Below are positions 30,133-48,566 of a stretch of 57,791 bases of DNA, one piece after another. Every line of letters begins with the position of its first letter. Position 1 is the stretch's first letter. The notes under the pieces were generated by a model that did no database searches, was not told where the DNA came from, and was given only the letters and a program-made list of their open reading frames with translations. The stretch is taken from contig JAPLED010000120.1 in NCBI GenBank assembly GCA_026391475.1, forward strand, positions 1-57,791, read 5' to 3'. The position numbers were made by a program, and so were the translations under genes. The stretch comes from Bacteroidia bacterium (lineage in GTDB: Bacteria; Bacteroidota; Bacteroidia; Bacteroidales; VadinHA17).

Positions 30133-32931
30133 TCAGTTTTTCTTCTGTTTTGTGGCCTTTGTATCCTCAATCTTTCTAAATCTATAATATTTTGTATATG
30201 CCAGGAATGAGAGTGCCGTCAAAACGATAACAGCGATATAAACAAACGATGGCACCGGAACCGGATCTCCTGATGCATAGGAATGCAGGCCCGATAAATA
30301 ATAGTTCACACCAAAATAGGTCATCAGAACTGATGAGAAGGCAAAAAGGGATATCAGGTTGAAGGTAAAGATATCCTTCATACCCGGAATCATCCGTGAA
30401 TGAATCACAATACTATATATAATTATAGTTATGAGCGACCATGTCTCCTTTGGATCCCATCCCCAGTACCGGCCCCATGATTCATTTGCCCATACAGCTC
30501 CTAGAAATGTCCCAATTGTAAGAAAATAGAGCCCCAGTGTAAGTGTCTTGTAGTTGATAACGGTCAGCTCATCAATGGTATTTGCTATCTTCTCCTTGTT
30601 CTTATTGTTCGATAATGCTAGCAGTATCATTGTGATTAGCCCAAGAATTGCACCTAGTCCAAGGAACCCATAGCTGCCTGTAATGACCGACACATGAAGT
30701 GTCAGCCAGTATGACTTAAGAACAGGTACAAGGTTGGTTATCTCAGGGTCCATAAAACTGAGATGAGCAACCATAAGAGTCATTGAAGCCAGTACAGCTG
30801 TCGCTGAAAGAGCAAAAGCCGATTTGCGAATGAAAATAAATCCTGCCAGTATTGTAACCCATGAAATAAAGATCATTGATTCATATCCGTTGCTCATTGG
30901 AGAACGACCTGCGATATACCATCTGAGACCAAGTCCGAGAGTATGAAACAGAAATCCTGCAAAAAGCAATATGCCAAGAACCCTTACAAATAAAGAGGTC
31001 TCTTTTTTACCCCTGATCACCATGGTAATCAGTCCTATAAGCATGATCAATCCAATAGTTGCATAAAACGGGAAGAGACGTTCAAAGATGCTGAGTTTAT
31101 AATACAGCAATTCAGCATTGGTTTTTGATTTTGAAGGAAGATCATATCCTGCAAACCTGGTCTGATATTCACTTATCGATCCGGTAACCTGCCGGGTGGC
31201 TGCAATATTATTAGTTTGAAGAGCATCTGTAAAAACAGGAATAATATTCTTCAGATAAAGCGAATCTTCTTTACTCACAGCTTTTCCGAGAGCTTCCTCC
31301 GATGATCCCCAGTTATATGTTCCGTCCTTCAGAGGGAATAACTTTAAAAAATCACCTTTATAAATCATAAAGACGATATTTACCCGTTCGTCGATTTTCA
31401 TCACCTCCTTATCCATCTTGCTTCTATCGCCGGGAGCTTTAGAATAAGCAGTATTAACCTCTTCAGAAATCTTATAAGTTCCGCTGCCATCAAGGTTGAC
31501 AAGATCGGAAAATGCAGCAAATTTCCCACTGATACCCAGTTTGCTCTGGAGATCCTTATTTGAAACCCTGATTAAAGGAACATCCTTCCAGTTATTAAAA
31601 TCGAGATACAGACCCAGGAAGACCTGCATTGAATTTAGCCCTTCAAACTCATTCTCCCTTGTCACCTTCCGGAGAATATCGTAACTCAATGTTAAGAGAG
31701 GTTTGGTCCTTCCCTTCTGATCCTGAACGAGTACTTTGCCAAACTCCTCAGATACAGCCTTATCCGGAACCAGTTTCTGGGCATTTACACTTGTAAGTCC
31801 CGATAGAAACAGAATCAAAATAATTGCAGGAATAAATTTCCTTATGTTTGATTGCCAGTATCCGGCGTTGACATTGCGAAATACCGTGTCTTTGCTGAGC
31901 AATGTTATAATGATAAATATAAAAAGTAGTCCATACCCCGTATAAGTAACCAACATACCGGCTACATCGTGGCTAACAGACAAAATTGTACCTTTTTCAT
32001 CCTGGTCGTACGATGACTGGTAAAACCGGTACCCTTTATATTTGAGAATATTATTCATGAAGATCATGAAAGGTTTTTCAACATTTGCGGTATTGTCAAT
32101 AAGGACAACATCACTCTTATAGCCCGACGGACTGGTAGAACCAGGGTATCTTTCGAGAACAAAATCATTAAGCTTAATGCTGAAAGGAAGTATTGTGCTC
32201 TTTGAGCCGTAAGTGATCTCAACCGTTTTCCCATCCGTCAGGCAGGAGCCGGAGGCAACTTTTTCTGACTCCCTGTCCCACAAATAGATTGTTGTTGATT
32301 CAGTTCCCCTGAACAGATGAAATATAAAGGCATTTTGCCCTGTATTCTGTTCCCCGGGGTTAACAGCTACTGCTTTCTTATCACCGGTATTTGTGATTTC
32401 CTCAGCGGCATTGGGGATAATCTTTGCCAGAACCAGTTCATAATCCTTATCATTGATGTTTAGAGTCTTATTATAATCATCGGCTGATACAGAGGTCATT
32501 GAGTATTTTTCCGAGTGGCTGTCAATAATATTCCCGCTGACATCTTTAATGGAATACCCAATATACTTTTCATTTGAAAAACAGGTATTCTGTTCCTCCC
32601 CTTCACGTATATGTATTGCCCCTTCCCATCCGAAATACCGTGTAATACCGGCTCCGGCAATCATAAGAATAAATGAGAGATGAAACAGGAAAACAGGAAG
32701 TTTTTCTCTTTTGTATAGTTTTAAAACAACTAACCGTCCAACCAGGTTTGCAGCAAGAAGTAACAAAATCAATTCGAACCACTTCGCATTATAAACCATG
32801 CTGTAAGCAGCAGACGACCCAAAGTCATTTTCTATGAAGGTGGCTGCTGCCATTGAAACAGCAAATAAAACAAATAAGACACCCATCAAAACCGGAGAAA
32901 AAAGAAATTTAATGTACTTCATAATCATCAA
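30133..32931 (-). CDS. ccsBA: Fused cytochrome c biogenesis protein CcsBA
   Basis: System II (Ccs) heme export and ligation to c-type cytochromes. The 932-residue protein joins a ResB/CcsB-like N-terminus (first helices, then the large periplasmic region from about 110 to 330 and a mid helix near 340) to a CcsA C-terminus. The C-terminal half has eight or so helices and the tryptophan-rich heme motif WGRYWGWDPKETWSLI with external His residues nearby. It provides the maturation needed by all the CxxCH proteins encoded in the next 12 kb. The start could be the ATG at residue 1 or residue 4 (MKYIKFLF). Confidence 0.93.
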   Translation of the reverse strand: MMIMKYIKFLFSPVLMGVLFVLFAVSMAAATFIENDFGSSAAYSMVYNAKWFELILLLLAANLVGRLVVLKLYKREKLPVFLFHLSFILMIAGAGITRYFGWEGAIHIREGEEQNTCFSNEKYIGYSIKDVSGNIIDSHSEKYSMTSVSADDYNKTLNINDKDYELVLAKIIPNAAEEITNTGDKKAVAVNPGEQNTGQNAFIFHLFRGTESTTIYLWDRESEKVASGSCLTDGKTVEITYGSKSTILPFSIKLNDFVLERYPGSTSPSGYKSDVVLIDNTANVEKPFMIFMNNILKYKGYRFYQSSYDQDEKGTILSVSHDVAGMLVTYTGYGLLFIFIIITLLSKDTVFRNVNAGYWQSNIRKFIPAIILILFLSGLTSVNAQKLVPDKAVSEEFGKVLVQDQKGRTKPLLTLSYDILRKVTRENEFEGLNSMQVFLGLYLDFNNWKDVPLIRVSNKDLQSKLGISGKFAAFSDLVNLDGSGTYKISEEVNTAYSKAPGDRSKMDKEVMKIDERVNIVFMIYKGDFLKLFPLKDGTYNWGSSEEALGKAVSKEDSLYLKNIIPVFTDALQTNNIAATRQVTGSISEYQTRFAGYDLPSKSKTNAELLYYKLSIFERLFPFYATIGLIMLIGLITMVIRGKKETSLFVRVLGILLFAGFLFHTLGLGLRWYIAGRSPMSNGYESMIFISWVTILAGFIFIRKSAFALSATAVLASMTLMVAHLSFMDPEITNLVPVLKSYWLTLHVSVITGSYGFLGLGAILGLITMILLALSNNKNKEKIANTIDELTVINYKTLTLGLYFLTIGTFLGAVWANESWGRYWGWDPKETWSLITIIIYSIVIHSRMIPGMKDIFTFNLISLFAFSSVLMTYFGVNYYLSGLHSYASGDPVPVPSFVYIAVIVLTALSFLAYTKYYRFRKIEDTKATKQKKN

Positions 32932-33044: not shown

Positions 33045-33740
33045 CTACCCTTTTTCCGATATCTGAATAAGTTTTTTCCTGTCAAGGATCTTAATCTTTG
33101 ACAAATCAGAATAAATCACTCCGGAATCTTCAAGTTCTTTTAATATCCTCACAACACATTCTTTGGCCATACTTGTCATTTCACCAAGTTCCTGACGTGA
33201 AAGGATCATTTCATATTCGTCGTTATGGAACACTTCATCTGAAAAATATAATAAAACTTCCGCAAGCCTGCCAGACATTCTCTTTTGCGACAGGTTGACC
33301 ATCCGGATATGTGATCTCAGCGATTTTGCACTGATATCTTCGATGAGACTCTCGGCGAATGCTCCGTTAACCCTGACAAGTTGTTTGAAGATATCGAAAC
33401 CGATGAAACAGGCCTGAACAGAGGTAATTGCAGCCACTGAATAGGTATGGCGCGAATTTACGTATGCTCCCGGGCCCATAATTAACATGCCTGGCAAAGC
33501 AATATTCATGATGAAGTTCTTCCCGTTAATACCTTCAATGTATGTCTTAGCCATTCCATTTGCCATAAACAATGCATTGGATGTTGGTGATCCCTGCTTT
33601 AGCATTATCTCACCTGGTTTGAAGGTTGCTTCGTACCTGTTCTCATTTATCAGTTGCAGTTCACTTTTTGTCAGATGCTGAAAATTCTTCCATTTTCTGG
33701 TGCACTTTTCACAACTAACGATTAAATTTCCGCTTGACAT
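33045..33740 (-). CDS. Crp/Fnr family transcriptional regulator
   Basis: A 231-residue regulator with a cyclic-nucleotide-binding-like beta-roll (about 25-135), a dimer helix, and a winged HTH: MILSRQELGEMTSMAKECVVRILKELEDSGVI near 178-209. The N-terminus has CEKC (Cys 10 and 13) and Cys 111 lies in the roll. FNR uses four Cys for its cluster, so a redox cofactor is possible but not shown. Divergent from the hexaheme cytochrome gene, with TGAT/ATCA half-sites between, so it is the obvious candidate to control the cytochrome genes and itself. Confidence 0.9.
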   Translation of the reverse strand: MSSGNLIVSCEKCTRKWKNFQHLTKSELQLINENRYEATFKPGEIMLKQGSPTSNALFMANGMAKTYIEGINGKNFIMNIALPGMLIMGPGAYVNSRHTYSVAAITSVQACFIGFDIFKQLVRVNGAFAESLIEDISAKSLRSHIRMVNLSQKRMSGRLAEVLLYFSDEVFHNDEYEMILSRQELGEMTSMAKECVVRILKELEDSGVIYSDLSKIKILDRKKLIQISEKG

Positions 33741-33948: not shown

Positions 33949-35268
33949 ATGAAAAACCTAATCAAATTTTTATTACTGTTAACTGTTACAGGTTTCATTC
34001 TCACATCCTGTGAAGGTCCTATGGGCCCTGCCGGGAAAGATGGCCTTGATGGTCTGGCAGGAATAGATGCGAATGAAACTTGTAAGCTATGCCATAATTC
34101 TACGACTGTTGATTTAATATCAGTACAGTACGAGTTATCGAAACATGGTTATGGTGAAGCTGCTTTTACAGAAGCCGGAAGTACAAGTTGTGCTCCATGT
34201 CACTTATCAGAAGCTTTTAAGTATGTGGTTAAGAATAATACTCCTGTTGCTTTTGTTAATACAGCTGGTGTATACTCGAATCCTTACGCTTCATCAGCGT
34301 CTACAGCATACGGAGAAATTGGATGCTCAACCTGCCACAGTAGCTTACATACTACTTTTGCCGGTACTGAGTTTTTACCTTTAACAACTACCGCTGCTGT
34401 ACCTATGACCTTCTTTGGTGGTGCAAAAACCATTAACCTTACACAAAAAGGTGGTGAAAGTAACTTATGCGTAAAATGTCACCAACCGCGTCCTTTTACA
34501 AAATCAAATACTACTGATAAGAATGTTCTTGATTACGCCGGGTTGGTTAGCGCTCCAACTGCTGTGTTCTATGATGCTGCACAATCCAATAGTTTAAATG
34601 TTCTTAAACCCAGTTACAGAACTCATACCCATTATGGCACTGTTGGTGCAGTTTATGCCGGACAAGGCGGTGTTGAATTTGGAACAGGTTATGCTAATTC
34701 ATGGCATACCACCGGAGCTTCATGCCAGGATTGTCACATGGCACCAATTACCGGAAAAGCTGGTGGACACACATTTGTAGCTAAAGGAAATTTTAACGGT
34801 TGTAACGTTACAGGTTGCCACTCGGCAACACCAATTACTTCAGCAACTACAACAAAATACTGGAAACTAACCAGAGATGCTGTTAAGTTAAAACTTGACC
34901 AACTTGCTGCAAAACTAACGATTGGTGGTGTTGATATTCTGAATAGAAACGGAGATGCTGAAACAAACCTTTGGGCTGGTCTAACCACAAATAACTATGA
35001 TGGATACTTAAATATATACGATCCAGCTACTAATCCAACAGTTGAAACATATAATGCAAAAAGTTTCCAATATATTGGAACTCCTCCAACAACATGGTCA
35101 GCGGCACAAATTGCTTATAATGCAACGTTACCAAAGATTACTTTAACAAATGCACAAATGGGAGCTCTTATCAACTTCCAGTTATGCCTGAGAGATTATA
35201 GTTTAGGTATTCATAATACCACCTACACTACAACTTTATTAACTAACTCAATAGCTGCATTACCATAG
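33949..35268 (+). CDS. Hexaheme c-type cytochrome lipoprotein with collagen-like stalk
   Basis: A 439-residue lipoprotein: signal peptide with lipobox TSC (Cys 21), then six Gly-X-Y triplets (residues 23-40, GPMGPAGKDGLDGLAGID), then heme sites CKLCH (45-49), CAPCH, CSTCH, CVKCH and CQDCH, plus CNVTGCH, a less usual C-x4-CH site. The C-terminal 150 residues carry no heme. The stalk would lift the heme domain off the membrane. No catalytic motif of nitrite or hydroxylamine reductases was recognised, so it is probably an electron carrier. It has its own terminator and shares a regulatory site with the operon at 42178. Confidence 0.85.
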   Translation: MKNLIKFLLLLTVTGFILTSCEGPMGPAGKDGLDGLAGIDANETCKLCHNSTTVDLISVQYELSKHGYGEAAFTEAGSTSCAPCHLSEAFKYVVKNNTPVAFVNTAGVYSNPYASSASTAYGEIGCSTCHSSLHTTFAGTEFLPLTTTAAVPMTFFGGAKTINLTQKGGESNLCVKCHQPRPFTKSNTTDKNVLDYAGLVSAPTAVFYDAAQSNSLNVLKPSYRTHTHYGTVGAVYAGQGGVEFGTGYANSWHTTGASCQDCHMAPITGKAGGHTFVAKGNFNGCNVTGCHSATPITSATTTKYWKLTRDAVKLKLDQLAAKLTIGGVDILNRNGDAETNLWAGLTTNNYDGYLNIYDPATNPTVETYNAKSFQYIGTPPTTWSAAQIAYNATLPKITLTNAQMGALINFQLCLRDYSLGIHNTTYTTTLLTNSIAALP

Positions 35269-35594: not shown

Positions 35595-35990
35595 TTATTT
35601 TTTAAATGTTCTCATGAAGTTAACAGTGTTCCAGATATCATCATCTGATAATTTCCCTTCATATTTTGGCATCTCTCCTCTTCCGGATTTGGTCTTGTAG
35701 AAATGATCGCCATCACTCTGTCCCTGGAAATCAGCTTTTGAAAAATCTCCCGGAAATTCTTTAAGTGCTCTTGCTTTTACGCCGTCTCCAAGACCTGCTT
35801 TACCATGGCAGGATGAACAGTTTTTTGTATAGATCGTCAGCCCTGCTTTAGTACTTGCATCGCCTTTTGCAACCGGGTTTTTCATTGATTTGAAATTTGC
35901 CGGAACAACCCATGGTTTAGGCTGAGCTACCAATGTTGCACTCAGCATTAAAACTGCAGCGCCAACAAAGAAAAGTTTCATAGTTTTCAT
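35595..35990 (-). CDS. Periplasmic monoheme cytochrome c (class I)
   Basis: A 131-residue exported cytochrome. Signal peptide ends near VAQ (about residue 23). Heme motif CSSCH at 58-62, then GKAGLGDGVKA, and the axial Met in GRGEMPKYEGKLSDDDIWNTVNFMRTF, the standard class I C-terminal helix. Small soluble electron carrier; last gene of the eight-gene operon, 54 bp after the preceding gene. Confidence 0.9.
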   Translation of the reverse strand: MKTMKLFFVGAAVLMLSATLVAQPKPWVVPANFKSMKNPVAKGDASTKAGLTIYTKNCSSCHGKAGLGDGVKARALKEFPGDFSKADFQGQSDGDHFYKTKSGRGEMPKYEGKLSDDDIWNTVNFMRTFKK

Positions 35991-36044
35991 AATAACTTCG
36001 TTTTAATTAATGAGTATAATACAATTATCGTGCAAAAGTCTATT

Positions 36045-36941
36045 TTAAATTCTGTATTCATCCTTAGCCTCCTGCTTTTTAGCATCAATCCTTATCCTTA
36101 TAAGACTGATTAAGGCAAAGAGGTAGTGCCCCCAAACGCCGGCAAGCAGAACTGACAATGTATAAATCATCCATTTGGGTGCGGTCTTTGTCCACAGAGC
36201 CCTGTGAGTTACAGGCACAGAATAATCAGTAGGTAAACCCCACGTAAGGGTTTCTCTTTTTTCGACATTTCCAAAAATCTGATTCTCTTCAAATTTTGCT
36301 ATAATGGTTACATTACCATCTTTATCTCCCGGTAAATCGGAAGGAAATTCAACGCTTGCAGTTCCAGCATCATCAAGTGTCAGTTCGCTGACCTGCAAAA
36401 GACTGAACATTCTTGGAACATAAACTTTAACCACTTCTCCCGAAACCGGCTTTTCTGTTCCGTTTTCCTTTATGAATGCATTTACAGTGATAGTCTTAAT
36501 GCTGTCAATCTGGGTCAGTACCATCTCAAGTCTTACATCCTTTACAGTGATTTCAGATGCACCAGCCTCAATAGTATCATTCCCTTTGAATTCTGAACTG
36601 AAAGCCCACATTCCATCCTTGCCAGCCTTAAGTCTCGTATCACTTTTGAGTTCAAACCTGGCAACACCCTTATTATCTGTAAGAGCAGTGGCAACTAATT
36701 CCTTTTGATCTCCGACAGTAAAAAAGGATATCTCCATTCCCGGGAGAGGCAATTCCATCCTGTTCTTTGAATAGGTCAGTGTTGTCTGCAAAATACGCTG
36801 ATCATCAGTATTTTTGAAATACTGCAGCTGAATATAGGGACTTATTACAGTTATTTCCTGTGAGAATAAATACACAGAAAAAACAGGAAGCAATATTAAA
36901 AGCAGAATTGTATATATTATCTTTTTCTTCATGACAATCAT
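36045..36941 (-). CDS. Exported membrane-anchored protein with Ig-like domains, unknown
   Basis: A 298-residue protein with a signal peptide (MKKKIIYTILLLILLPVFSVYLFSQ), two beta-rich Ig-like domains (LPGMEISFFTVGD...ARFELKSD and ITVNAFIKENGTEKPVSGEVVKVYVP), then a C-terminal helix (WMIYTLSVLLAGVWGHYLFALI) and a basic tail. It contains no Cys-based cofactor site. Position directly after the NrfD-like gene (11 bp) argues for a structural or docking role in the redox complex. Confidence 0.7.
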   Translation of the reverse strand: MIVMKKKIIYTILLLILLPVFSVYLFSQEITVISPYIQLQYFKNTDDQRILQTTLTYSKNRMELPLPGMEISFFTVGDQKELVATALTDNKGVARFELKSDTRLKAGKDGMWAFSSEFKGNDTIEAGASEITVKDVRLEMVLTQIDSIKTITVNAFIKENGTEKPVSGEVVKVYVPRMFSLLQVSELTLDDAGTASVEFPSDLPGDKDGNVTIIAKFEENQIFGNVEKRETLTWGLPTDYSVPVTHRALWTKTAPKWMIYTLSVLLAGVWGHYLFALISLIRIRIDAKKQEAKDEYRI

Positions 36942-36952
36942 TGATTTATCTG

Positions 36953-38260
36953 TTACTTCAATATTTCAATTTTGTCCTTTTCCTGCATTTCGGAAATCGA
37001 AATGATAGGAGCTATTTTCGATACCAGCATGAACAGCATCGCAAATACCGAAACTCCTGCCAGTGTCAGCGACCATTCGATCCATGTAGGAGAATAGTTT
37101 ATCCAGTCGGGACGGGTATCCTGAATAGGAAGAAATGGCGTTTCAAGCGTGGGTATAACAATTATATACCGGTTTACCCATAGTGCAGTAACAGCAATAA
37201 CCGCCGCAACAGTTATACTGGGAATTGTTCTGAACTTTGGAAAGGCGATAATAATACAAGGGAGGAGAATTCCGATGTAGTTCGCAAAGATAAAAAGTGA
37301 ATAATAATCTGTGAACAGCTTATCAATCAGGATCGAGTCCATTTTTATTGATCCGTACCACTTTGTAAGGTAATCGCTGAAGGTGAAATACCCGTAGAAG
37401 GCGGCAATTATAGTAAGTAGTACCCCAACGTTAACAAAATGACGCTTGGTGATATATTCCTCAAGGTGATAGATTTTCCTGAAGATCCACATTAGGATAA
37501 TCAATAATCCTGTGCCTGAGAATACTGCGGCAATAACGAAATAAGGGCCGAAAATTGTTGAATGCCATCCGGGCTGGAGAGTTACGCCAAAGATCCATGC
37601 CAGCACAGAGTAAACGATAATTGCGATTGCAATAATCATTGCTGCCATGATCATTCTGGCATTGGAGAGTATCTTTCTTTGTTTCTCAGTTCCGGTAAAA
37701 CCCAGTGAAAGTGTTTTATACAGTTTCTTTTTCCATGGTGGCACATTCAGTTCAGTATAATCGCGGAGTATCGCAAAATCTTCAATGAATGAAAGGTAGA
37801 GATATATAAAACATCCGAAAAGGTCTGTACAGATTGCTATCACGTCCCAGGTAATTGGTGATTGTATACGCGGGTGGATAAAAAGGAAATACAACCTGTC
37901 GAGACGTCCGATACAAAAGAAAATAAAGAAAGGGCCGATTATAAGTGAAATAATTGTAATTAATTCGGCCATCCTTATCACCGGTTTTCTCCATCCGGTA
38001 TGAAAAAGATGCAGAACGCCGGAAATCAAGGCTCCGGAATAGCTTAATCCCATAAAAAAAATAAAGTTCACTATATAAAAGCCCCATACAACATTATCAC
38101 GCATGCCGGTAACAATATGGCCTTTGTCGATTTGTAGTATAAGTCCATAAATTCCAATTGCAAAAAAAGCAAAGAATATAAAAAAGGTTATATACCATTT
38201 TATACTTGTCTTCTCAATTTCCGGAGTAAGATCTCTGATTAACTTCTTATCTGCTTCCAT
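36953..38260 (-). CDS. nrfD: NrfD/PsrC-like membrane quinone-binding subunit
   Basis: A 435-residue membrane protein with about ten hydrophobic helices, of the NrfD/PsrC family that exchanges electrons between quinone and an Fe-S subunit. Typical features: MRDNVVWGFYIVNFIFFMGLSYSGALISGVLHL in the first helices and helices with acidic residues later. It follows the four-cluster Fe-S gene by 27 bp. The symbol is a family label; the partner catalytic subunit of Nrf, Psr or Ttr systems is absent here. Confidence 0.87.
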   Translation of the reverse strand: MEADKKLIRDLTPEIEKTSIKWYITFFIFFAFFAIGIYGLILQIDKGHIVTGMRDNVVWGFYIVNFIFFMGLSYSGALISGVLHLFHTGWRKPVIRMAELITIISLIIGPFFIFFCIGRLDRLYFLFIHPRIQSPITWDVIAICTDLFGCFIYLYLSFIEDFAILRDYTELNVPPWKKKLYKTLSLGFTGTEKQRKILSNARMIMAAMIIAIAIIVYSVLAWIFGVTLQPGWHSTIFGPYFVIAAVFSGTGLLIILMWIFRKIYHLEEYITKRHFVNVGVLLTIIAAFYGYFTFSDYLTKWYGSIKMDSILIDKLFTDYYSLFIFANYIGILLPCIIIAFPKFRTIPSITVAAVIAVTALWVNRYIIVIPTLETPFLPIQDTRPDWINYSPTWIEWSLTLAGVSVFAMLFMLVSKIAPIISISEMQEKDKIEILK

Positions 38261-38287
38261 TTTCTTTCCATATTACAATAAAATGTA

Positions 38288-39250
38288 TTACCGGGGACCG
38301 GCATTTTTATACCTGCCCTTTATAGATTCATCAGAATCCTCCAAACCACTTTCCACGGGAAACATTCTTTGTGTCGGAGGCAGATAATAAACACTCGGAA
38401 GGGTACCCAGTTCCTCACGATACCTATAGCCAGCCCTGTCGAGCATCAGTTTGCTAAATCTTTCGGTCTCAATCCCATTGGTAACAGTATCTTCAAGAAT
38501 ATCACCAAAATAGATCACTCCCATGGGGCAGGCTGTAACGCAACGGGGCAGCTCATTTTTCCGGAGATTATCTGCACAGAATATACATTTGCCAACAGTT
38601 CCTTCAACCGCCGGTATGTTTGTTTCAGGATCATAAACATGTCCTTCAGGAACCTTAACCTCCGGATCTTTCCAATTGAAAACCCTTGCTGAATACGGAC
38701 AGCCGGTCATGCAGAATTTGCAACCAATACAACGCTGGTTATCAATAAGAACAATACCATCCGGCCGTTTATAGGTTGCACCAACCGGACAAACGCTTAC
38801 ACACATAGGCTTGTCGCAATGAAAACATGGCCTGGGGAACCAGTACTTTGCTGTGTGATTATCATCCTGCAGCAGATATAGTCTCATCCACTCATGGTCT
38901 TTGGGCAGCAAATGCCCTTCCTGGCATGCTTCAACACATTTTCTTGCATTCTTGCACCGTGCCAGGTCAATTACCATACAGAATTTCCTGTTAGGGAGAC
39001 CCGCTCTTGCCTCTTCCTTAAGTTCATTAAGTATTTCTTTTACAGGTTTTATGTCATCTTTATCAACTTCAACCAGGGTACCGTCAGGAGACAAAAGCTT
39101 TATCTTTTCCCCTGATTTTGATTTATTTCCGGCAAAAACTGAAGTGCCGGCAACACCAGCAATAGAGACAGCCCCAACACCAACACCTACTTTTTTAAGA
39201 AAATTACGCCTCGATGATCTTTCGCTCTCATTTTCCTCTTTCTCTTTCAT
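38288..39250 (-). CDS. Tat-exported four-cluster ferredoxin subunit (NrfC/PsrB-like)
   Basis: A 320-residue Fe-S protein with a twin-arginine signal (SSRRNFLKK, residues 12-20) and four Cys groups: C99-x5-C105-x3-C109, CFHCDKPMCVSVCP, CIGCKFCMTGCP and CIFCADN...RCVTACP. The last three are regular 4Fe-4S motifs. The first lacks the usual second Cys (Ala 102 instead), so that cluster may be 3Fe-4S or use another ligand such as Cys 91. It should carry electrons between the NrfD-like protein and the heptaheme cytochrome. Confidence 0.9.
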   Translation of the reverse strand: MKEKEENESERSSRRNFLKKVGVGVGAVSIAGVAGTSVFAGNKSKSGEKIKLLSPDGTLVEVDKDDIKPVKEILNELKEEARAGLPNRKFCMVIDLARCKNARKCVEACQEGHLLPKDHEWMRLYLLQDDNHTAKYWFPRPCFHCDKPMCVSVCPVGATYKRPDGIVLIDNQRCIGCKFCMTGCPYSARVFNWKDPEVKVPEGHVYDPETNIPAVEGTVGKCIFCADNLRKNELPRCVTACPMGVIYFGDILEDTVTNGIETERFSKLMLDRAGYRYREELGTLPSVYYLPPTQRMFPVESGLEDSDESIKGRYKNAGPR

Positions 39251-39273
39251 ACTATTTTTATCTTATAGTTTTG

Positions 39274-39885
39274 CTATTCTGATCGATGATATCCGGAGAT
39301 CATCCCCCAGAAGAGAGATGTAGGTTTGGCTCCGAGAGTACACGTATATATATGAATCACCATGAAGATTGAAAGGAAGAAACCCATTGTTATATGTAAA
39401 ATGTCGGTCAGGATAAGACCACTCACTCCAAAAAACCTGGTTATGGTTATTTCAGGGAAAAGCAAACCAATACCCGATATAATGAGGAGAGGAACAGCCA
39501 CATACATGGAAAGCACATAGGTTAATTTTTGCAAGGGATTAAACTTACGTTCTTCAGTTACAGGAAATGGATGTTTTTCTCCTTTGAACATTCCCCAGGA
39601 ATAATATTTTAATTGCTTACCAAGATCTGACAGAAAATCCTTTTTGCCGATTCTGTAATACCTTCCGTTTTTTGTCAGGAGATTCCCGGTAACAAATAAT
39701 ATATAGCTTATAATCAGCACAATAGCTGCAAAATTATGCCATTTTACTGCTATTGCAAATCCTACAACATATGAAGCATTCTCTTTATCGGTATATTGCA
39801 TACTTAATCCGGTCACAATAAGTATAAGAAACATTACTGCGTTTATAATATGCCAGGCCCTTATCCATTTTGGGTAAAGATACAT
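39274..39885 (-). CDS. Cytochrome b subunit (thiosulfate reductase / Ni-hydrogenase type)
   Basis: A 203-residue membrane protein with four helices. Candidate heme-b His residues lie in IRAWHIIN (residue 12), AVKWHNFAA (about 50), DILHITMGF and MVIHIYTCTLG near the end. A loop between helices 2 and 3 (KKDFLSDLGKQLKYYSWGMF) resembles hydrogenase or formate dehydrogenase cytochrome b. With the NrfD-like protein it gives the operon two separate membrane quinone-linked subunits. Confidence 0.85.
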   Translation of the reverse strand: MYLYPKWIRAWHIINAVMFLILIVTGLSMQYTDKENASYVVGFAIAVKWHNFAAIVLIISYILFVTGNLLTKNGRYYRIGKKDFLSDLGKQLKYYSWGMFKGEKHPFPVTEERKFNPLQKLTYVLSMYVAVPLLIISGIGLLFPEITITRFFGVSGLILTDILHITMGFFLSIFMVIHIYTCTLGAKPTSLFWGMISGYHRSE

Positions 39886-39896
39886 CTTAGTCTTCT

Positions 39897-40901
39897 TTAA
39901 TAGTTTTTGTTATTCTTACTTATCCTGAATACTATATGAATGCCAATAATACCGATTACACCAATAAAAATAATCAGACTAAAAAGATTCAGGTATTCAT
40001 TTCTGTTTGCACCAATTACATATGATTCATTTAAAATTATTCCGTTAAAGAATCCATCACGACGTTGCGCTTTAGATTCAAATTTATAAAGTGAGGCCAT
40101 CAGGATTGAATTTTTCGAATGGCATTCATTGCAAAGTTTGACTGCTTCTCCCTTAGGTTTAATCAAATGAGCTACAGGAATATTATTATTAATTTTTGTA
40201 TGACACTCAATGCACCGGACATTTGCAAAGTGTGCTTTCTGGTTTGGGAGCCAGTCGTGCTTTTGAATAATATTTATCTCCTCCCTGTCAGTCAGAAGCT
40301 GAAAGTGGTTGAAGTCGGAGTGGCAATTAAGACAGATAGCGTTATCGTATGATATCGTCTCTTTAAGATTATCTTTGTTTCTTATATTTATCTTGTAGCT
40401 GTGAGGATTATGGCATTTCCAACATGTAAATCCATCTTCCTCAAGCTTGAAATGAGTACTCTGCTGATATTCAGTTTCTATCTCCTCAAAATGATACTGT
40501 GCAAATTTCTCATCGCCCCCATGACAATCAATACAGTTATATTTCTGCTCCATTCTCAGCTCACCGGCATGAGGAAAGTTTACATACTCTGAGGAATGGC
40601 AGTCTGTGCAACTAAAACTTTTATGGTTAGATCTGTAAAAATCTTCTCTGTTAACGATTCTTTCTGAACACATCAGAGCCTTAACCTGACGTCCTAAAGT
40701 TTCATTAGTATATTCATATTTACCCTGACCATGACATTTAAGACACCGTTCATTATCGTCATGAAACGGAGATACAAATGTTGTAGTATCTGAAGTAATC
40801 TGATTATCCCGTTTAAAACTGAATACTCCCGCATGAGAAGCATAAGTATTACAGATTAAAAACAAAAGAGATACAATCAGGAATCTGAAAATCTTCATCA
40901 A
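39897..40901 (-). CDS. Heptaheme c-type cytochrome, membrane anchored
   Basis: A 334-residue cytochrome. After a signal peptide (ending near SHA), seven CxxCH sites are seen: CLKCH, CTDCH, CIDCH, CWKCH, CLNCH, CIECH and CNECH. A C-terminal helix (LNLFSLIIFIGVIGIIGIHIVF) anchors it in the inner membrane with a short basic tail. Fits the cytochrome c3/NapC-related multiheme proteins that partner with NrfC/NrfD-like and cytochrome b subunits. Overlaps neither neighbour, with 11-16 bp gaps. Confidence 0.88.
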   Translation of the reverse strand: MMKIFRFLIVSLLFLICNTYASHAGVFSFKRDNQITSDTTTFVSPFHDDNERCLKCHGQGKYEYTNETLGRQVKALMCSERIVNREDFYRSNHKSFSCTDCHSSEYVNFPHAGELRMEQKYNCIDCHGGDEKFAQYHFEEIETEYQQSTHFKLEEDGFTCWKCHNPHSYKINIRNKDNLKETISYDNAICLNCHSDFNHFQLLTDREEINIIQKHDWLPNQKAHFANVRCIECHTKINNNIPVAHLIKPKGEAVKLCNECHSKNSILMASLYKFESKAQRRDGFFNGIILNESYVIGANRNEYLNLFSLIIFIGVIGIIGIHIVFRISKNNKNY

Positions 40902-40917
40902 TGATTCCGGTTATTGT

Positions 40918-41772
40918 TTAGAACCTTACAGTAATGTTAAACCCTACAAGATATTTGTCATTTGTATTGAAAACAAGATTCCGCTGATTGATAATCTGAT
41001 TATAGTTGGCTACAAATATCTGGAAAGTATGAGTTGCAGTATTTATTTCCCAACCCAGTGAAAGATTTGGTTTTGTCTGTTCGTCAGGATCCTGCTTTGT
41101 AAGTAATTGGTCATATTCAAGTAATAATGAATGGGAACCGAATAAATTTGCACGGGCACCTGCTGACAAACCTAAGTTCAGGTTCTTATAACCTGCTGTA
41201 GTATCGCTATTTAGAGGTACAGAATTGAAATAAGCCAGTGATGGAGCTACCTGTACTGAGAACTTTTCATTAATCTTACGGGCCACAATTAGTTGTGTGA
41301 AATAGGATAATCTGTGCATTTCTTTGAAACTGGCGGCTGGTCCGAATTCCTCTTCCTTACGTAAGTCAGCTACAATATTACCATAGTATGAAAGGGAAAC
41401 AGGCATACTGTTATCTTCCGTCTGCTGAAGAATAAGATACTTCCACTGAATATCCTGTAGTTTATAATCTTTTGTTGTTCCGGCGCCAATCATTAACCTG
41501 TCGGTTATACCATAATTCAGGCCTATACGTGTATTGGCAGAGCCATAAATACCAAAAAGATTATGATAATTTTCAATCAGGCTGAATCTGTGATGAATTT
41601 CCAGTTCCAGACCACCTTTGTAAGGTGTGGCGACGGTATGATTATCAATAAGTATGGTTGTTCCAAAAGTGAACCGGACCGGTTTGGATTTTTCCTGTGT
41701 CTGAGTTTCTTCCTTTGCGAATAAAGGAGAAATGAATAACGATAAAATTAAAACTATAAAAATCTTTTTCAT
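40918..41772 (-). CDS. Outer-membrane beta-barrel protein (DUF5777-like)
   Basis: A 284-residue protein with a signal peptide (ending SPLFA) and alternating beta-strand pattern throughout, closing with a Phe-terminated strand (KYLVGFNITVRF), the usual signal for outer-membrane barrel insertion. Resembles the Bacteroidota DUF5777 family, which occurs next to cytochrome genes. It could form a pore or a sheath for a cytochrome. It carries no heme motif. Confidence 0.78.
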   Translation of the reverse strand: MKKIFIVLILSLFISPLFAKEETQTQEKSKPVRFTFGTTILIDNHTVATPYKGGLELEIHHRFSLIENYHNLFGIYGSANTRIGLNYGITDRLMIGAGTTKDYKLQDIQWKYLILQQTEDNSMPVSLSYYGNIVADLRKEEEFGPAASFKEMHRLSYFTQLIVARKINEKFSVQVAPSLAYFNSVPLNSDTTAGYKNLNLGLSAGARANLFGSHSLLLEYDQLLTKQDPDEQTKPNLSLGWEINTATHTFQIFVANYNQIINQRNLVFNTNDKYLVGFNITVRF

Positions 41773-41803
41773 GTTAATTAGGTTTTATCAGGTTTGATTA
41801 ATT

Positions 41804-42178
41804 TTAATTATTGAGGGCTCCCTGGTTAATCCATCCGAGAATTTTTGATCTTTCGGTGTCAGTAGCTCTTGAAAGATGTGATCCGGTCAATTTAGTATAT
41901 AACTTGCTGGTCTCACCCGGAGTGTTAACAAACGCACCATTTGTAAGTGACAGGTAAGATTTACCATCCCGGAGGTCAGGTGCTTTTGCACCACCATGAC
42001 ACGATGTACAATTGGCATTGAATATTGGTTGAATATCCACCTGAAAATGCCATGTAGTTCCCGGGTCAACAACCGGTAGGATAAATGAATTCTTTTCACA
42101 TGAAGAGATTCCTGTGACTGCTGCAAGAAGAACAAATGCAACCAGAATCTGTCTGATCTTATTTAATTTATGATTCAT
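41804..42178 (-). CDS. Monoheme cytochrome c lipoprotein
   Basis: A 124-residue lipoprotein with lipobox ISSC (Cys 27) and a single heme site CTSCH (57-61). The sequence around it (QVDIQPIFNANCTSCHGGAKAPDL, then SKILGWINQGA) is typical of small Bacteroidota cytochromes of the outer or periplasmic membrane face. First gene of the eight-gene operon, with the composite operator 110 bases upstream. Confidence 0.85.
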   Translation of the reverse strand: MNHKLNKIRQILVAFVLLAAVTGISSCEKNSFILPVVDPGTTWHFQVDIQPIFNANCTSCHGGAKAPDLRDGKSYLSLTNGAFVNTPGETSKLYTKLTGSHLSRATDTERSKILGWINQGALNN

Positions 42179-43330: not shown

Positions 43331-45109
43331 TCAGAATTTATAGGCATTATCTTCAATCAGTTTATCAGCGACCCGCCGTCTGGCATCTTTTACATTTACA
43401 CATTCCACTCTTGAAAGATTTTCAATTGCCAAAATCAGTATAGGGCAGGATTCGGGTGAAGAGAATGAGCCGATTGCCTCAAGAGCAGATTTTCTGACAA
43501 TACCGGCAGTGTCGAAAATATTAACATCAAGCATATCTTTATAAAGGGATACATTTCCCTTAAGCGATTCCATCTTCCGGACTCTTAATGCCAGTGATTC
43601 CGAAACATAAGTCTCCATCATCATTTCGGCAATATTGTTGAGAACTTCCTGTTCGTTAATAAGGTTCTTCGCGAATCGCTTTGTTGCACCATGAATACAA
43701 ATTAAAATAACCTTTTTGAAGTTTTTGATATTTCTTGTTTTTTCCTGGTAATAGCTTTCACCTGCTGTTTTGCCATCGGTGATGTTATCCAAACCGGAAT
43801 AAAGTTTTTCAGCTTCCCCGAAGAGGTCAAATTCGCCTTTCATAGCCCGTTTCATTGCTGTGTCAACAACGAGAAGACGGTTTATTTCATTTGTGCCTTC
43901 GAAAATCCTGTTTATCCTCGAATCGCGATAACCTCTTTCAACAGCCATCTCTGCTGAATAACCCATACCTCCGTGTATCTGCACTGCCTCATCAGAAACA
44001 TAATCAAGCATTTCGGAGCCTACAACTTTCAAAATGGCAGCCTCAACTGCGTAGTGGCTGATAGCTTCAATCGAAGCTCTTCCATAATCTCCACAGTCAA
44101 CTGTCAGTTTCCCCATCAGTATGTCAATATCTTTACTTACTCTGTAGACAGCTGATTCTGAAGCAAAAAGACGAATAACCTGTTCAGCCATTTTATGTTT
44201 TAACGCACCAAAGGTTGAAATAAGCACCCCAAACTGTTTTCTCTCGTTGGCATATTTAACCGTATCGTTAATAGCTTTTTTAGCAGCTCCGATAACGTTA
44301 GCTCCAAGCTTAAGACGTCCCATGTGAAGTATACTCAGTGCAATCCTGAAACCTTCTCCTCTTTTACCAAGCAGGTTTTCGACCGGTACTTTAACATCAT
44401 TGAAATATATCTGTGCTGTAGATGATCCTTTGATCCCCATTTTATGCTCATCGGGGCCGATAACCACACCAGGGTATTTGGTCTCGACAATAAACGCGCT
44501 GAGAACCCTGTCGGTATCAATTTTTGCAAATACCACCAGTGTATCGGCAAATCCGGCGTTTGTGATCCACATCTTCTGTCCGTTAAGGATATAATGGTTG
44601 CCGTCTTCGCTTAGTTTTGCGTTGGTTTTTCCCGAGTTTGCATCACTTCCGGCACCCGGCTCGGTGAGACAGTAAGCTCCGATAAACTCACCGGATGCCA
44701 GTTTTGTTACATAACGTTCCCTTTGATCTTTATTTCCATAATACATTATCGGTAAGGTGCCAATACCGCAATGTGCCATATATGCAACTGAAAATGAATA
44801 TCCTGCCCCTGTAGTTTCGGCTGCAAGCATTTGTGTCACAAATGACAGTCCGAATCCACCAAACTCTTCTGGAATTGAAATACCCATTAATCCAAGTTCC
44901 CCCGACTTTTTCAGGATACTTTTCATCAGTTCCCTGTCACCTTTTTCGACTTGTTCGATGTTGGGATAAACTTCTGCTTCAAGGAAATCGCTGCATGTCT
45001 GGGCTATCATTCTCTGTTCCTCGTTGAATTCCTCAGGAATGAAAATATCTTTCGATTCGACTTCGCTTACAAGAAATTCACCGCTTTTCAATATTTTACT
45101 ATTTTCCAT
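43331..45109 (-). CDS. Acyl-CoA dehydrogenase
   Basis: Flavoenzyme that oxidises acyl-CoA to trans-2-enoyl-CoA and passes electrons to ETF. The 592-residue protein has the N-terminal helical domain, the signature AYCLTEPGAGSDANSGKT, the FAD segment MWITNAGFADTLVVFAKI, and the C-terminal RINRIFEGTNEINRL with the catalytic Glu of EGT. The extra ~180 residues after the core resemble the very-long-chain type. Followed upstream by two Fe-S redox genes and etfAB, so electrons have a full route to the quinone pool. Confidence 0.92.
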   Translation of the reverse strand: MENSKILKSGEFLVSEVESKDIFIPEEFNEEQRMIAQTCSDFLEAEVYPNIEQVEKGDRELMKSILKKSGELGLMGISIPEEFGGFGLSFVTQMLAAETTGAGYSFSVAYMAHCGIGTLPIMYYGNKDQRERYVTKLASGEFIGAYCLTEPGAGSDANSGKTNAKLSEDGNHYILNGQKMWITNAGFADTLVVFAKIDTDRVLSAFIVETKYPGVVIGPDEHKMGIKGSSTAQIYFNDVKVPVENLLGKRGEGFRIALSILHMGRLKLGANVIGAAKKAINDTVKYANERKQFGVLISTFGALKHKMAEQVIRLFASESAVYRVSKDIDILMGKLTVDCGDYGRASIEAISHYAVEAAILKVVGSEMLDYVSDEAVQIHGGMGYSAEMAVERGYRDSRINRIFEGTNEINRLLVVDTAMKRAMKGEFDLFGEAEKLYSGLDNITDGKTAGESYYQEKTRNIKNFKKVILICIHGATKRFAKNLINEQEVLNNIAEMMMETYVSESLALRVRKMESLKGNVSLYKDMLDVNIFDTAGIVRKSALEAIGSFSSPESCPILILAIENLSRVECVNVKDARRRVADKLIEDNAYKF

Positions 45110-45135
45110 TGTGTCAGTTCATTATTTGGATTAAT

Positions 45136-45930
45136 CTATAATTCAAGTGATTGTGCAATAAGCTCGGCAATATCAAGGTTCCTGATCTCCTCCTCTTTGT
45201 TTTTGTATTTCAGGCCATCAGTAAGCATGGTCATACAAAAAGGACAAGCTGTTGCAATTACTTTAGCTTCAGTTTTAAGGGCATCCTCTGTTCTTTCAAT
45301 AAAAATTTCCTTATCGCCTTTCTCAGCCTCTTTAAACATTTGTGTACCTCCTGCGCCACAACATAATGCAAAGCTTTTATTCCGGTGCATCTCAATCAGA
45401 TTGCCAGTCAGTTTTTTTAGAATAAGACGTGGTTCGTCATATATGTCATTTGCCCTTCCTAGATAGCAGGGATCGTGATATGTAACTGAAACATTTTTCA
45501 ATGATGCTGAATCTAACTTTAATTTACCCTCTTCAATATTTCTGTTTAAAAACTGAAGGTAGTTGATAACTTCATACTTACCACCGAGATCGGGATATTC
45601 GTTTTTGAAGATGTTAAAACAATGCGGACAAATGGTTATGATCTTTTTCACTTCATACATCTTGAATATCTCAATAACCTGTAGCGCCTGCATCTGATAG
45701 AGCATTTCGTTTCCTGCGCGTCTGGCCGGATCACCTGTGCAGGTCTCTTCCTTGCCAAGAACAGCATAGCTCACATTAAGATGGCTGAGGATTTTTGCAA
45801 ATGCCCTGACAACTTTTTTATACCTGTCGTCAAAAGCTCCGGCACAACCTACCCAGAACAGGTATTCAGGCTTTTCTCCCCTAGCAAAAAGGTCTGCCAT
45901 TACAGGTACTTCTATTTTCCGGATTTCCAT
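45136..45930 (-). CDS. CCG-domain Fe-S protein (HdrB-like, ETF:quinone oxidoreductase part)
   Basis: A 264-residue protein with two cysteine-rich (CCG-type) domains: ETCTGDPARR with CPHC, and VTYHDPCYLGRANDIYDEPR...FALCCGAGGTQMF, which matches heterodisulfide reductase subunit B. Together with the next gene it forms a two-piece version of the membrane ETF:menaquinone oxidoreductase (EtfD type). Hdr-like heterodisulfide chemistry is not indicated because the neighbours are EtfBA and an acyl-CoA dehydrogenase. Confidence 0.87.
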   Translation of the reverse strand: MEIRKIEVPVMADLFARGEKPEYLFWVGCAGAFDDRYKKVVRAFAKILSHLNVSYAVLGKEETCTGDPARRAGNEMLYQMQALQVIEIFKMYEVKKIITICPHCFNIFKNEYPDLGGKYEVINYLQFLNRNIEEGKLKLDSASLKNVSVTYHDPCYLGRANDIYDEPRLILKKLTGNLIEMHRNKSFALCCGAGGTQMFKEAEKGDKEIFIERTEDALKTEAKVIATACPFCMTMLTDGLKYKNKEEEIRNLDIAELIAQSLEL

Positions 45931-45955
45931 TTTCTATCTTTTATCTTTTTTGTTA

Positions 45956-45994
45956 CACAGAGGGTCACAGAGGATACACAGAGAGACACAGAGG
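45956..45994. repeat. CACAGAG repeat tract
   Basis: Four near-identical CACAGAG units in 39 bases between the two Fe-S genes, directly after the stop codon of one. A complementary CTTTGTG tract lies at 2019-2047. Confidence 0.7.
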
Positions 45995-47314
45995 TTAATG
46001 TACATTAATTTCCAGATCCTTTGCCCAGAGCAGTCTGTCCTCTGCAGAATATTGCCATGGAGCGCCGTTGTTTTCGATATTATTGAAAACGGCTTTGAGT
46101 TCCCCCGGAGCAGAAGCTTCCTCCATTACGAGGTATCTTCGCATATCAATTATCAGTGTCGGATGGTTTATATTGATCGGACACTCTTTTGCACAGGCGT
46201 TGCATGTTGTACATGCCCAGAGCTCTTCCTCAGAAATATAATCTCTTAAAAGAGAACGGTTATCGTTGAAATCCCTTCCGTTTTTAACCATCAGAGGACC
46301 TTTCTCTTTCATCCTTGCTCTGAGGTCCATCATTATTTTTCTGGGTGACAGTTTCTTACCGGTAATATTTGCCGGGCAGACAGATGTGCACCGGCCACAT
46401 TGAGTACATGACAATGAATCAAAATAGTTTTTCCAGGAAGCATCTTCCGCATCTTTTACACCAAACCGTTCAACGGGAACATCGGTAGCCGCTGCAGCAA
46501 AAGCTGTATCAGGGTTCAGCATAAGCTTTACTTCCCTGGTAATACTGCCCATATTCGGAAGTTTTCCCAGGGGGTCAAGTCTCGAAAGAAAGACATTTGG
46601 CACTGACATGAAAACATGGAAATGTTTTGAGTATGGCAGTATGTTGGCAAAGACAAAAATCAGAAGGATATGTGTCCACCATGAGGCTTCGTACATAAGC
46701 CAGAAACTTTCTGCCGGTCCACTTGTAAATAATCCTGTAAAAAGAGTACTGATGGGATATAAACCAATTATTTCTTCTCCCATAAGTGACTTATATTCAA
46801 TATATCCGATATTCATTGTCAGAAGCGAAATCATCAGAAGGAGGATGATAGAAAGGGCAATATTGGCATCGATATGAGATATTTTTTTCATCTCGATGCC
46901 CTCGAATCTTTTAATGTGGAAGAAAAGCCGGCGGCTCAGAAAAATAACAATTGCAATGGCAACAAGAAGTGCAAAAATATCGCCGGAAGCAATTACAATG
47001 TTATAAACCGGTCCGAGGAATTGTAACGCTCTATCGGTTCCGGTAAGTCCGTCAATAACCATTTCGAGGCTTCCTAAAATAATAACGCAAAAGCCCCAGA
47101 AGACCAAAGCGTGAAAGAATCCGATTATCGGTTTACGAAATATTTTTGTCTGGCCAAAGGCAACAGATAGCATTACATTGATTCTCTTTCCAAAATCCTT
47201 TACAGGGAAGGCAGGCCTGGTAAACTTGAAAAAACTGACAATTCTGTTAATGGTATAAGAGAATACTCCAATTGTTATCAGTAGTGCAATTGAAAATACA
47301 ATTTGTTTTGTCAT
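45995..47314 (-). CDS. Membrane Fe-S protein (NarI-like + 2x4Fe-4S, HdrC-like)
   Basis: A 439-residue protein. The first ~240 residues hold five to six helices of the NarI type, with His residues for heme b. The C-terminal part has two 4Fe-4S motifs: CTQCGRCTSVCP and CTTCNACAKECP, as in GlpC/HdrC. This is the membrane half of the ETF:menaquinone oxidoreductase, receiving electrons from EtfAB. It precedes the CCG protein on the same strand. Confidence 0.87.
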   Translation of the reverse strand: MTKQIVFSIALLITIGVFSYTINRIVSFFKFTRPAFPVKDFGKRINVMLSVAFGQTKIFRKPIIGFFHALVFWGFCVIILGSLEMVIDGLTGTDRALQFLGPVYNIVIASGDIFALLVAIAIVIFLSRRLFFHIKRFEGIEMKKISHIDANIALSIILLLMISLLTMNIGYIEYKSLMGEEIIGLYPISTLFTGLFTSGPAESFWLMYEASWWTHILLIFVFANILPYSKHFHVFMSVPNVFLSRLDPLGKLPNMGSITREVKLMLNPDTAFAAAATDVPVERFGVKDAEDASWKNYFDSLSCTQCGRCTSVCPANITGKKLSPRKIMMDLRARMKEKGPLMVKNGRDFNDNRSLLRDYISEEELWACTTCNACAKECPININHPTLIIDMRRYLVMEEASAPGELKAVFNNIENNGAPWQYSAEDRLLWAKDLEINVH

Positions 47315-47422
47315 GGTTGTAACTTTAGCCTTTTGACTTTTTTTATTTTTTTGTCACGAAGACTCAAAGGTCTACTTAATATTTTTATTGAGAATGTCTC
47401 AAAAATGTTATCAACTACCCCT

Positions 47423-47537
47423 TCATGAACTTTCGTTCATGACACCCCTCCTTTAAAAAGGAGGGGAAAATACTGAAATACATTATTATAACTTTCTCCT
47501 CCTCTTCAGAGGAGGAGTACCCCCGACTTGTCGGGGG
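47423..47537. repeat. Multi-hairpin intergenic repeat
   Basis: Four perfect inverted repeats in a row: TCATGAAC/GTTCATGA (47423-47442), CCCCTCCTTT/AAAGGAGGGG (47445-47466), CTCCTCCTCT/AGAGGAGGAG (47496-47517) and CCCCCGAC/GTCGGGGG (47520-47537). It fills the 254-bp gap between etfA and the membrane Fe-S gene. This looks like a dispersed, MITE-like intergenic repeat. Confidence 0.82.
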
Positions 47538-47568
47538 TGAGGTGGTGATATTTTGAGTCAACCTCATA

Positions 47569-48534: not shown

Positions 48535-48566
48535 ATCGTAGTGATTTACTGTTTTTTAACTATTTA

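Follow-up and report, generated by a model that had tools for sequence, protein, structure and literature searches.

A modular cytochrome/NrfD cassette of Bacteroidales and its possible role as a menaquinol oxidoreductase serving an outer-membrane cytochrome

We examined an eight-gene cytochrome/NrfD operon in a Bacteroidales genome, located in a window of 57,791 nucleotides (contig JAPLED010000120.1, the whole stretch analyzed), against the closest described respiratory systems. The CbcA/CbcB pair of Geobacter takes part in very-low-potential respiration (PMC12307469), and NetBCD is a quinol dehydrogenase of the inner membrane that accompanies MtrCAB (PMC8805035). In the alternative complex III subunit ActC, residues Ser164, Asp169, and Arg395 belong to the quinone site and gate, and His139 is the quinone protonation site (PMC8076601). 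The paper on OcwA, which bears the code 6I5B, describes this Thermincola protein as a cell-surface terminal reductase related to NrfA, with active-site hemes that lack the usual CXXCK motif and a fold able to serve both an Nrf-like and a surface role (PMC6703420). Bacteroidetes are enriched on anodes, and their electron-export genes have been called uncharacterized (PMC8258643); a listing for the phylum gives only five CbcL-type homologues and one ImcH homologue (PMC6295460). Our literature search on electron export in Bacteroidetes and Bacteroidales returned no paper that, by its available text, was identifiable as describing the present cassette.

The window belongs to an assembly of 2.8 Mb in 133 contigs (97.9% complete), and its eight open reading frames (ORFs) lie at 35595-42178, all on the minus strand and separated by 11-54 bp, transcribed in the order A, B, C, D, E, F, G, H from 42178 down to 35595 (Table 1). 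Coordinates, Pfam, and structural models confirm the types and order that an original prediction had read from the letters of the DNA. We found that the cassette is built of swappable parts and is not one invariant eight-gene unit. We read it, tentatively and with somewhat less than even confidence, as a modular menaquinol:cytochrome c oxidoreductase in which two quinone modules would feed an outer-membrane-anchored cytochrome, which is in keeping with the earlier proposal of a quinone-linked NrfC/NrfD pair working toward the periplasm or outer membrane without a molybdenum (Mo) subunit.

Compared by description, the C-D pair fits Geobacter Cbc5/CbcBA, a heptaheme PF09699 cytochrome with a PF01292 cytochrome b561 (PMC7726332), so that the likeness to Geobacter Cbc parts proposed earlier stands; the DUF5777 barrel, the ActC-like NrfD protein, and the immunoglobulin (Ig)-type protein are additional, falling outside the CbcBA description. 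With alternative complex III the cassette shares a monoheme cytochrome and, in F, the Ser/Asp/Arg residues of the ActC quinone site and gate, but it has no fused ActB (E stands alone), no pentaheme ActA (C is a heptaheme protein), a single NrfD protein, and no ActF. NetBCD is a set of a cytochrome, an iron-sulfur (FeS) protein, and an NrfD protein. Its occurrence with MtrCAB is a precedent for pairing an inner-membrane quinol dehydrogenase with an outer-membrane conduit, although on the NetB model, with its cut-off of 380 bits, C reached only 11.2. Similar to NrfABCD are the NrfC-type E, the NrfD-type F, and an adjoining NrfA-superfamily lipoprotein, here termed mhcX; unlike NrfABCD, mhcX is divergent, C-D, A-B, and G are extra, and E reached 109.7 on the NrfC model (cut-off 377.6). 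For DsrMKJOP, E reached 184.1 on DsrO (cut-off 200) and F 82.3 on DsrP (cut-off 350), both below threshold, and the eight ORFs included no recognizable counterpart of DsrM, DsrK, or DsrJ. The Mo-dependent NrfD complexes Psr, Dms, Ttr, and Phs differ in that the cassette has no linked molybdopterin catalytic subunit. Finally, the anode-enriched 'Bacteroidetes_1' cluster, which has six cytochrome genes and one beta-barrel and is likewise called uncharacterized, may belong to the same family, judging from its description (PMC8258643).

A profile search of public genomes yielded 311 relatives, the best 80 of which were kept with their surroundings (the 80 named loci; two titled Chlorobiota, the remainder with Bacteroidales or other Bacteroidota names). 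Since L034-L073 and L074-L153 share organisms, locus counts were taken from the 80 named loci only. This sample is biased to close kin and is cut by many contig ends, and at least three genes to the left and at least six to the right of C were present in 51 of 80; dropping untestable loci left 76 for D, 69 for A-B, and 70 for E-F-G. D followed C in 76/76 loci, and A-B lay at most three genes upstream of C in 63/69, the others being L106, L109, L137, L139, L153, and L134, where A-B is nearby on the opposite strand. E, F, and G were present in 30, 31, and 28 of the 70 loci, respectively, and when contiguous stood directly behind C-D in all 27 cases. Conservation of the eight genes as a unit, the check put forward in the original prediction, did not hold: all eight occurred on a single strand near C in only 23 of the 80 loci, while 24 had A, B, C, D, and H without E-F-G, and the position of H varied (after G, after D, or in the order B-H-C).

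The converse arrangement was found using F. Matches were present in 179 of 198 Bacteroidota genomes searched, some of them weak, and among those listed nearly all were 27-33% identical, three such loci (L221-L223) having a gene order like that of alternative complex III. Six non-Bacteroidales Bacteroidota genomes (L215-L220, F 35-39% identical) carried A, B, E, F, G, and H together with no C or D within the ~20 kb read in each; three of these had a gene of the EB_dh heme-b type upstream of A and one had a YceI gene. In a seventh genome (L214, F 44% identical), F was beside a Mo enzyme and A-B was absent. Because A-B-E-F-G-H exists without C-D nearby, A, B, and H can accompany each of the two quinone modules. 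ImcH-like genes were near the cassette in 16 of the 80 loci (3 of them fragments), a tetraheme/FeS/NrfD set in 6, and cytochromes with 14-19 hemes near C in 5 (four with 19 CXXCH and one with 14), plus one fragment. Thus, A, B, and H are the stable part of these loci, and the presence of C-D, E-F-G, ImcH-like genes, and the 14-19-heme cytochromes varies.

C had matches at E-value ≤ 0.001 in 47 of the 98 related genomes, one of them weak, and tblastn of C against plasmids gave no match. When presence of E-F-G (35 rows) was mapped on the C tree (76 rows), 13 changes were needed, at least 8 of them forced by well-supported branches. The F proteins of cassette loci, 30 in number, grouped together with full support, and the eight proteins had correlated pairwise distances across 24 sets (Spearman 0.48 to 0.85). 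The single F group and the correlated distances fit co-inheritance with repeated loss, a reading limited by the fact that such correlations would also be expected from species kinship alone.

Both subunits of the NrfC/NrfD pair carry distinguishing residues. E, described in the original prediction as a four-cluster ferredoxin, has 15 conserved cluster cysteines and not 16, one being missing in 41/41 proteins. The change falls at the second Cys of the first cluster motif, which consequently reads C-x5-C-x3-C; this position (102) was non-Cys in 34/34 Bacteroidales E proteins (window counted) and in 7/7 from six other genomes, whereas the cysteine was kept in 6/6 comparison proteins (three ActB, one NetC-like, one DsrO-like, and one PsrB-like). 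The three ActB rows have Thr at the position of Cys177 in E, such that E retains the cysteine that ActB replaces but has lost another. By analogy with formate dehydrogenase-N, the altered cluster is presumably the one closest to the missing catalytic subunit. The twin-arginine translocation (Tat) motif was present in 32/34 E proteins. As an aside, an ORF of 87-100 aa with a Tat signal and similarity to the E N-terminus precedes E in L215, L216, L217, L219, and L220 (e.g., L216:8539-8802), and the Bacteroidales E contains within itself this segment that is a small separate Tat ORF elsewhere.

F aligned with ActC over nearly its full length, its best Protein Data Bank (PDB) matches being 6f0k_C (E-value 1.6e-52) and 6btm_C, 'Alternative Complex III subunit C' (1.9e-49). 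F and ActC nonetheless fell into separate supported groups of the final tree, from which L198 and L199 (wrong reading frames) and L208 and L209 (badly aligned) were omitted: 37 F rows were on one side (Shimodaira-Hasegawa-like approximate likelihood ratio test 95.7), and 20 ActC rows formed their own group (100). An approximately unbiased test of F with the Mo-linked row, on a tree still containing L198 and L199, gave p 0.10. Numbering follows 6f0k_C, which we take to be R. marinus ActC. The F equivalents of Ser164, Asp169, and Arg395, in numbers that agree with PMC8076601, were invariant, and the Asp253 position was Ile or Leu. At the His139 position (116 in F), Cys was present in 30/30 Bacteroidales F and Asp in 7/7 other F, which have no C-D nearby, as against His in 20/22 ActC rows (L208 and L209 included), the two without His being badly aligned. 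Variation at position 116 follows clade just as well as it follows the presence of C-D.

The statement in the original prediction that no catalytic subunit was visible held for Mo enzymes only. Two Mo enzymes served as queries against all ORFs of 150 aa or more in L034-L153 and L214-L220, and no linked Mo subunit was found in the 80 named loci or the six A-B-E-F-G-H loci, the sole match being that in L214. The window's own genome has a single PF00384 protein (G000:C61), on another contig, of the Fdh/DMSO family and beside an FeS gene. Its identity as NuoG was rejected on the grounds of this family, the FeS neighbor, and a family match that starts at residue 2-7. PF14589, tried as a guess for the NrfD family, had no match in the own genome and was uninformative.

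The same statement failed with respect to mhcX, a candidate reductase which adjoins the operon just outside the range first considered and is often linked to it. This protein has five CXXCH motifs and one CX4CH, a GPxGPxG collagen-like linker, and a lipid-bearing Cys invariant in the alignment, while CXXCK is absent from its sequence. It matched PF02335 (NrfA) at 29.4 bits (cut-off 24.1), as the only protein of its genome to do so, and its profile found 6i5b (OcwA) as the best PDB entry (E-value 9.4e-17), followed by octaheme nitrite reductase and NrfA. Either mhcX or a shorter homologue (mhc6) was near C in 48 of the 80 loci by label, and in 44 when the copy had to reach 300 aa and four CXXCH. 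Across 98 relatives, counting strong matches only and with kinship uncorrected, C and mhcX were both present in 39, C alone in 7, mhcX alone in 5, and neither in 47, that is, mhcX was in 39/46 genomes with C versus 5/52 without. For C and the ImcH-like protein, these numbers were 34, 12, 4, and 48 (34/46 versus 4/52). Weak or fragmentary matches were scored absent (C in G096; ImcH-like in G014, G023, G052, and G095; mhcX in G025, G047, G055, G076, and G078), and the pattern persisted both inside and outside the genus. The ImcH-like protein of the own genome is 54% identical over its length to one beside the cassette in L045. We consider mhcX the likely terminal reductase of the chain.

From these parts we infer a direction of flow, an order of carriers, and a surface location. 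Quinol would be oxidized by two modules, C-D, a cytochrome b561 with an anchored heptaheme protein as in Geobacter CbcBA, and E-F-G, a Tat-exported FeS subunit with an ActC-like NrfD protein and an Ig-type accessory. Both would pass electrons to the monoheme carrier H, which would hand them to the outer-membrane monoheme lipoprotein A with barrel B, and the last step would be taken by mhcX at or outside the outer membrane. The final acceptor may be an extracellular one or a small nitrogen compound reduced at this membrane. A recognizable conserved cassette with a candidate reductase turns electron export by Bacteroidetes into a testable question, would show how NrfD-type ion-translocating subunits join and leave heme-based quinol oxidases, and gives DUF5777, which was not named in any paper of the literature searched, a redox context.

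Several observations weigh against this menaquinol oxidoreductase scheme. The own genome also encodes cytochrome bd (window 5420-6550, by Pfam) and a heme-copper oxidase. The link to mhcX is incomplete, since mhcX is missing in 7/46 genomes with C, C is missing in 5/44 with mhcX, only 44-48 of the 80 loci have mhcX or mhc6 near C, and the co-occurrence counts are uncorrected for kinship. The barrel is a further difficulty. An outer-membrane barrel with a cytochrome partner is shared with MtrAB/Pcc conduits and Cyc2, and the combination with a monoheme cytochrome resembles Cyc2, which would suit electron flow in the inward direction; however, A is a separate monoheme lipoprotein, A and B are separate genes with no heme-barrel fusion as in Cyc2, and the AlphaFold2 model of B (mean predicted local distance difference test, pLDDT, 87.6) has 12 strands. 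By the strand numbers of MtrB and Cyc2 and the size that defines porin-cytochrome conduits, a barrel of 12 strands is too narrow for an Mtr-like heme wire. Being 12-stranded and phylum-wide (DUF5777 was in 115 of 296 sampled Bacteroidota genomes), B is unlikely to sheath such a wire and, on its model, is an unpromising candidate for an Mtr-type conduit; the model argues instead for a role in small-solute passage, anchoring, or display. Its best Foldseek matches included NanC, OmpG, FapF, and general porins, indicating no function.

In addition, A-B-like pairs occur outside the operon in other Bacteroidota genomes. At the best 30 DUF5777 loci, an A-like protein was within the 4-kb stretch in 25 (profile E-value < 1e-3), a few such proteins lacking the heme motif, and these loci often had an ORF of 170-200 aa, both tested examples of which were YceI. 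The possibility, raised in the original prediction as a ground for refutation, that barrel and lipoprotein are an unrelated conserved pair is therefore borne out to the extent that such pairs stand elsewhere, in the two tested cases with YceI, but not where C-D is missing, since A-B there remains linked to E-F-G-H.

The likeliest alternative, which we still regard as somewhat unlikely, has the chain end on the periplasmic side of the outer membrane, with mhcX acting as an Nrf-like nitrite/hydroxylamine reductase, the barrel passing its substrate, and nothing extracellular. The score of mhcX above the PF02335 cut-off, as the sole match in the genome, its profile matches to octaheme nitrite reductase and NrfA structures, the membership of E and F in the NrfC/NrfD families, and the suitability of a 12-strand barrel as a small-solute channel would all agree with this. 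Unlike most NrfA, however, mhcX has no CXXCK. In addition, some loci have a linked ImcH-like gene, and such genes co-occur with C across genomes; the Geobacter protein of that name functions in extracellular electron transfer.

A variant closer to extracellular respiration treats E-F-G as an energy-conserving ActC-like NrfD/FeS/Ig add-on to a CbcBA-type quinol oxidase, which would feed the lipoprotein/barrel pair and an OcwA-like surface cytochrome. Here D would oxidize quinol; the Cys at the protonation position of F, in 30/30 where C-D is present, and the remodeled cluster of E suggest that F may mainly translocate ions, in the manner of ActF, a subunit that binds no quinone. We think this variant unlikely on balance; if true, uncultured Bacteroidales would have their own route of extracellular respiration.

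It is quite improbable, in our estimation, that the cassette is a substitute for bc1 or alternative complex III which sends electrons via H to a terminal oxidase while the A-B outer-membrane pair merely travels along. F is closest to ActC, H is c552-like, A-B-like pairs exist alone, and in L215, one of the six A-B-E-F-G-H loci, H is followed after ~2.5 kb by a monoheme gene and a COX1-family gene; with this COX1 gene and the cytochrome bd and heme-copper oxidase of the own genome, H could feed an oxidase instead. Yet two oxidase queries found nothing in the 80 named loci and only the L215 gene in the six others, the operon has no counterpart of ActB, pentaheme ActA, or ActF, and A-B accompanies C-D at 63 of 69 testable loci and E-F-G-H in the six genomes without C-D there.

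Inward flow, in which outer-membrane donors (e.g., Fe(II) or a syntrophic partner) would be oxidized via mhcX/A-B and menaquinone reduced, is highly improbable, for although a reversed direction has been predicted for CbcBA in Seep-SRB2 (PMC10553843), Geobacter CbcBA is described as quinol-oxidizing and no evidence here favors the inward direction, lithotrophy genes not having been looked for.

Table 1. Positions of the cassette genes, of the two distinguishing codons, and of neighboring genes in the window
Feature	Position	Strand	Description
Fused ResB/CcsA protein	30133-32931	-	Cytochrome c maturation; PF01578 + PF05140; near cassette in many loci
Crp/Fnr-family regulator	33045-33740	-	PF13545/PF00027; near C in 49/80 loci
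mhcX	33949-35268	+	Divergent lipoprotein multiheme cytochrome, NrfA/OcwA superfamily
H	35595-35990	-	Monoheme cytochrome c, c552-like; PF13442/PF00034
G	36045-36941	-	Membrane protein, two Ig-like beta-sandwich domains; Big_1 28.4 (cut-off 34.9)
F	36953-38260	-	NrfD-type integral membrane subunit, ActC-like; NrfD Pfam 98.6 bits (cut-off 25.8)
F codon 116	37913-37915	-	Cys at ActC His139 position
E	38288-39250	-	Tat-exported NrfC/DsrO-type 4Fe-4S subunit, stand-alone, 320 aa
E codon 102	38945-38947	-	Ala replacing second Cys of first cluster motif
D	39274-39885	-	Cytochrome b561, CbcB/PhsC-like; PF01292 84.7 bits (cut-off 30.1)
C	39897-40901	-	Membrane-anchored heptaheme cytochrome c; PF09699; C-terminal hydrophobic stretch by eye
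B	40918-41772	-	DUF5777 outer-membrane beta-barrel; PF19089 224 bits (cut-off 23.1)
A	41804-42178	-	Monoheme c-type lipoprotein; one CXXCH; cytochrome c Pfam matches below cut-off only

The remaining features of the individual proteins were largely conserved. A, which is probably anchored in the outer membrane, had a lipobox in 69/72 family members and the heme motif in 71/72 (window counted in these and the next two families), C had seven CXXCH in 79/79, and D had invariant H12, H50, H164, and H178 in 73/73. D reached 178.8 bits on the thiosulfate reductase cytochrome b model (cut-off 204), and its best match among PDB sequences was only at E-value 0.96. H matched PDB cytochrome c552 (E-value 3e-14), and a lipobox was absent in 75/80 of its family. 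The AlphaFold2 model of G (mean pLDDT 87.0) has strands in 35-134 and 136-232 and a C-terminal helix at 254-297; its profile reached only E-value 0.74 against PDB sequences, and its Foldseek matches were only generic Ig-like folds with a low template-modeling score.

On the other side of the cassette, window 43331-49316 encodes an acyl-CoA dehydrogenase, a cysteine-rich CCG protein, an FeS/nitrate-reductase-gamma-like protein, and EtfA/EtfB (Etf named by eye). These genes adjoin the cassette in many loci and perhaps form an electron entry to menaquinone. Cytochromes with 14-19 hemes are beside the cassette in L129, L139, L144, L148, and L150, as well as L048, L049, and L051; in L048, and by Pfam for this locus only, the 19-heme protein is fused to a b561. 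In one non-Bacteroidales genome (L218:9315-16489), the E-F-G-H block is tandemly duplicated, with a shorter second G.

Additionally, the own genome contains a separate NetBCD-like set (G000:C93, L053:8130-12203) of tetraheme, FeS, and NrfD proteins with a 548-aa protein that had no family match at the thresholds used, and methylmalonyl-CoA mutase genes adjoin this set. Two further proteins, G000:C9 (L238:9479-11011) and G000:C12 (L240:8675-10222), show an odd pairing of an NapC/NrfH-type tetraheme cytochrome with an FGE-sulfatase domain, which is formylglycine-generating enzyme-like.

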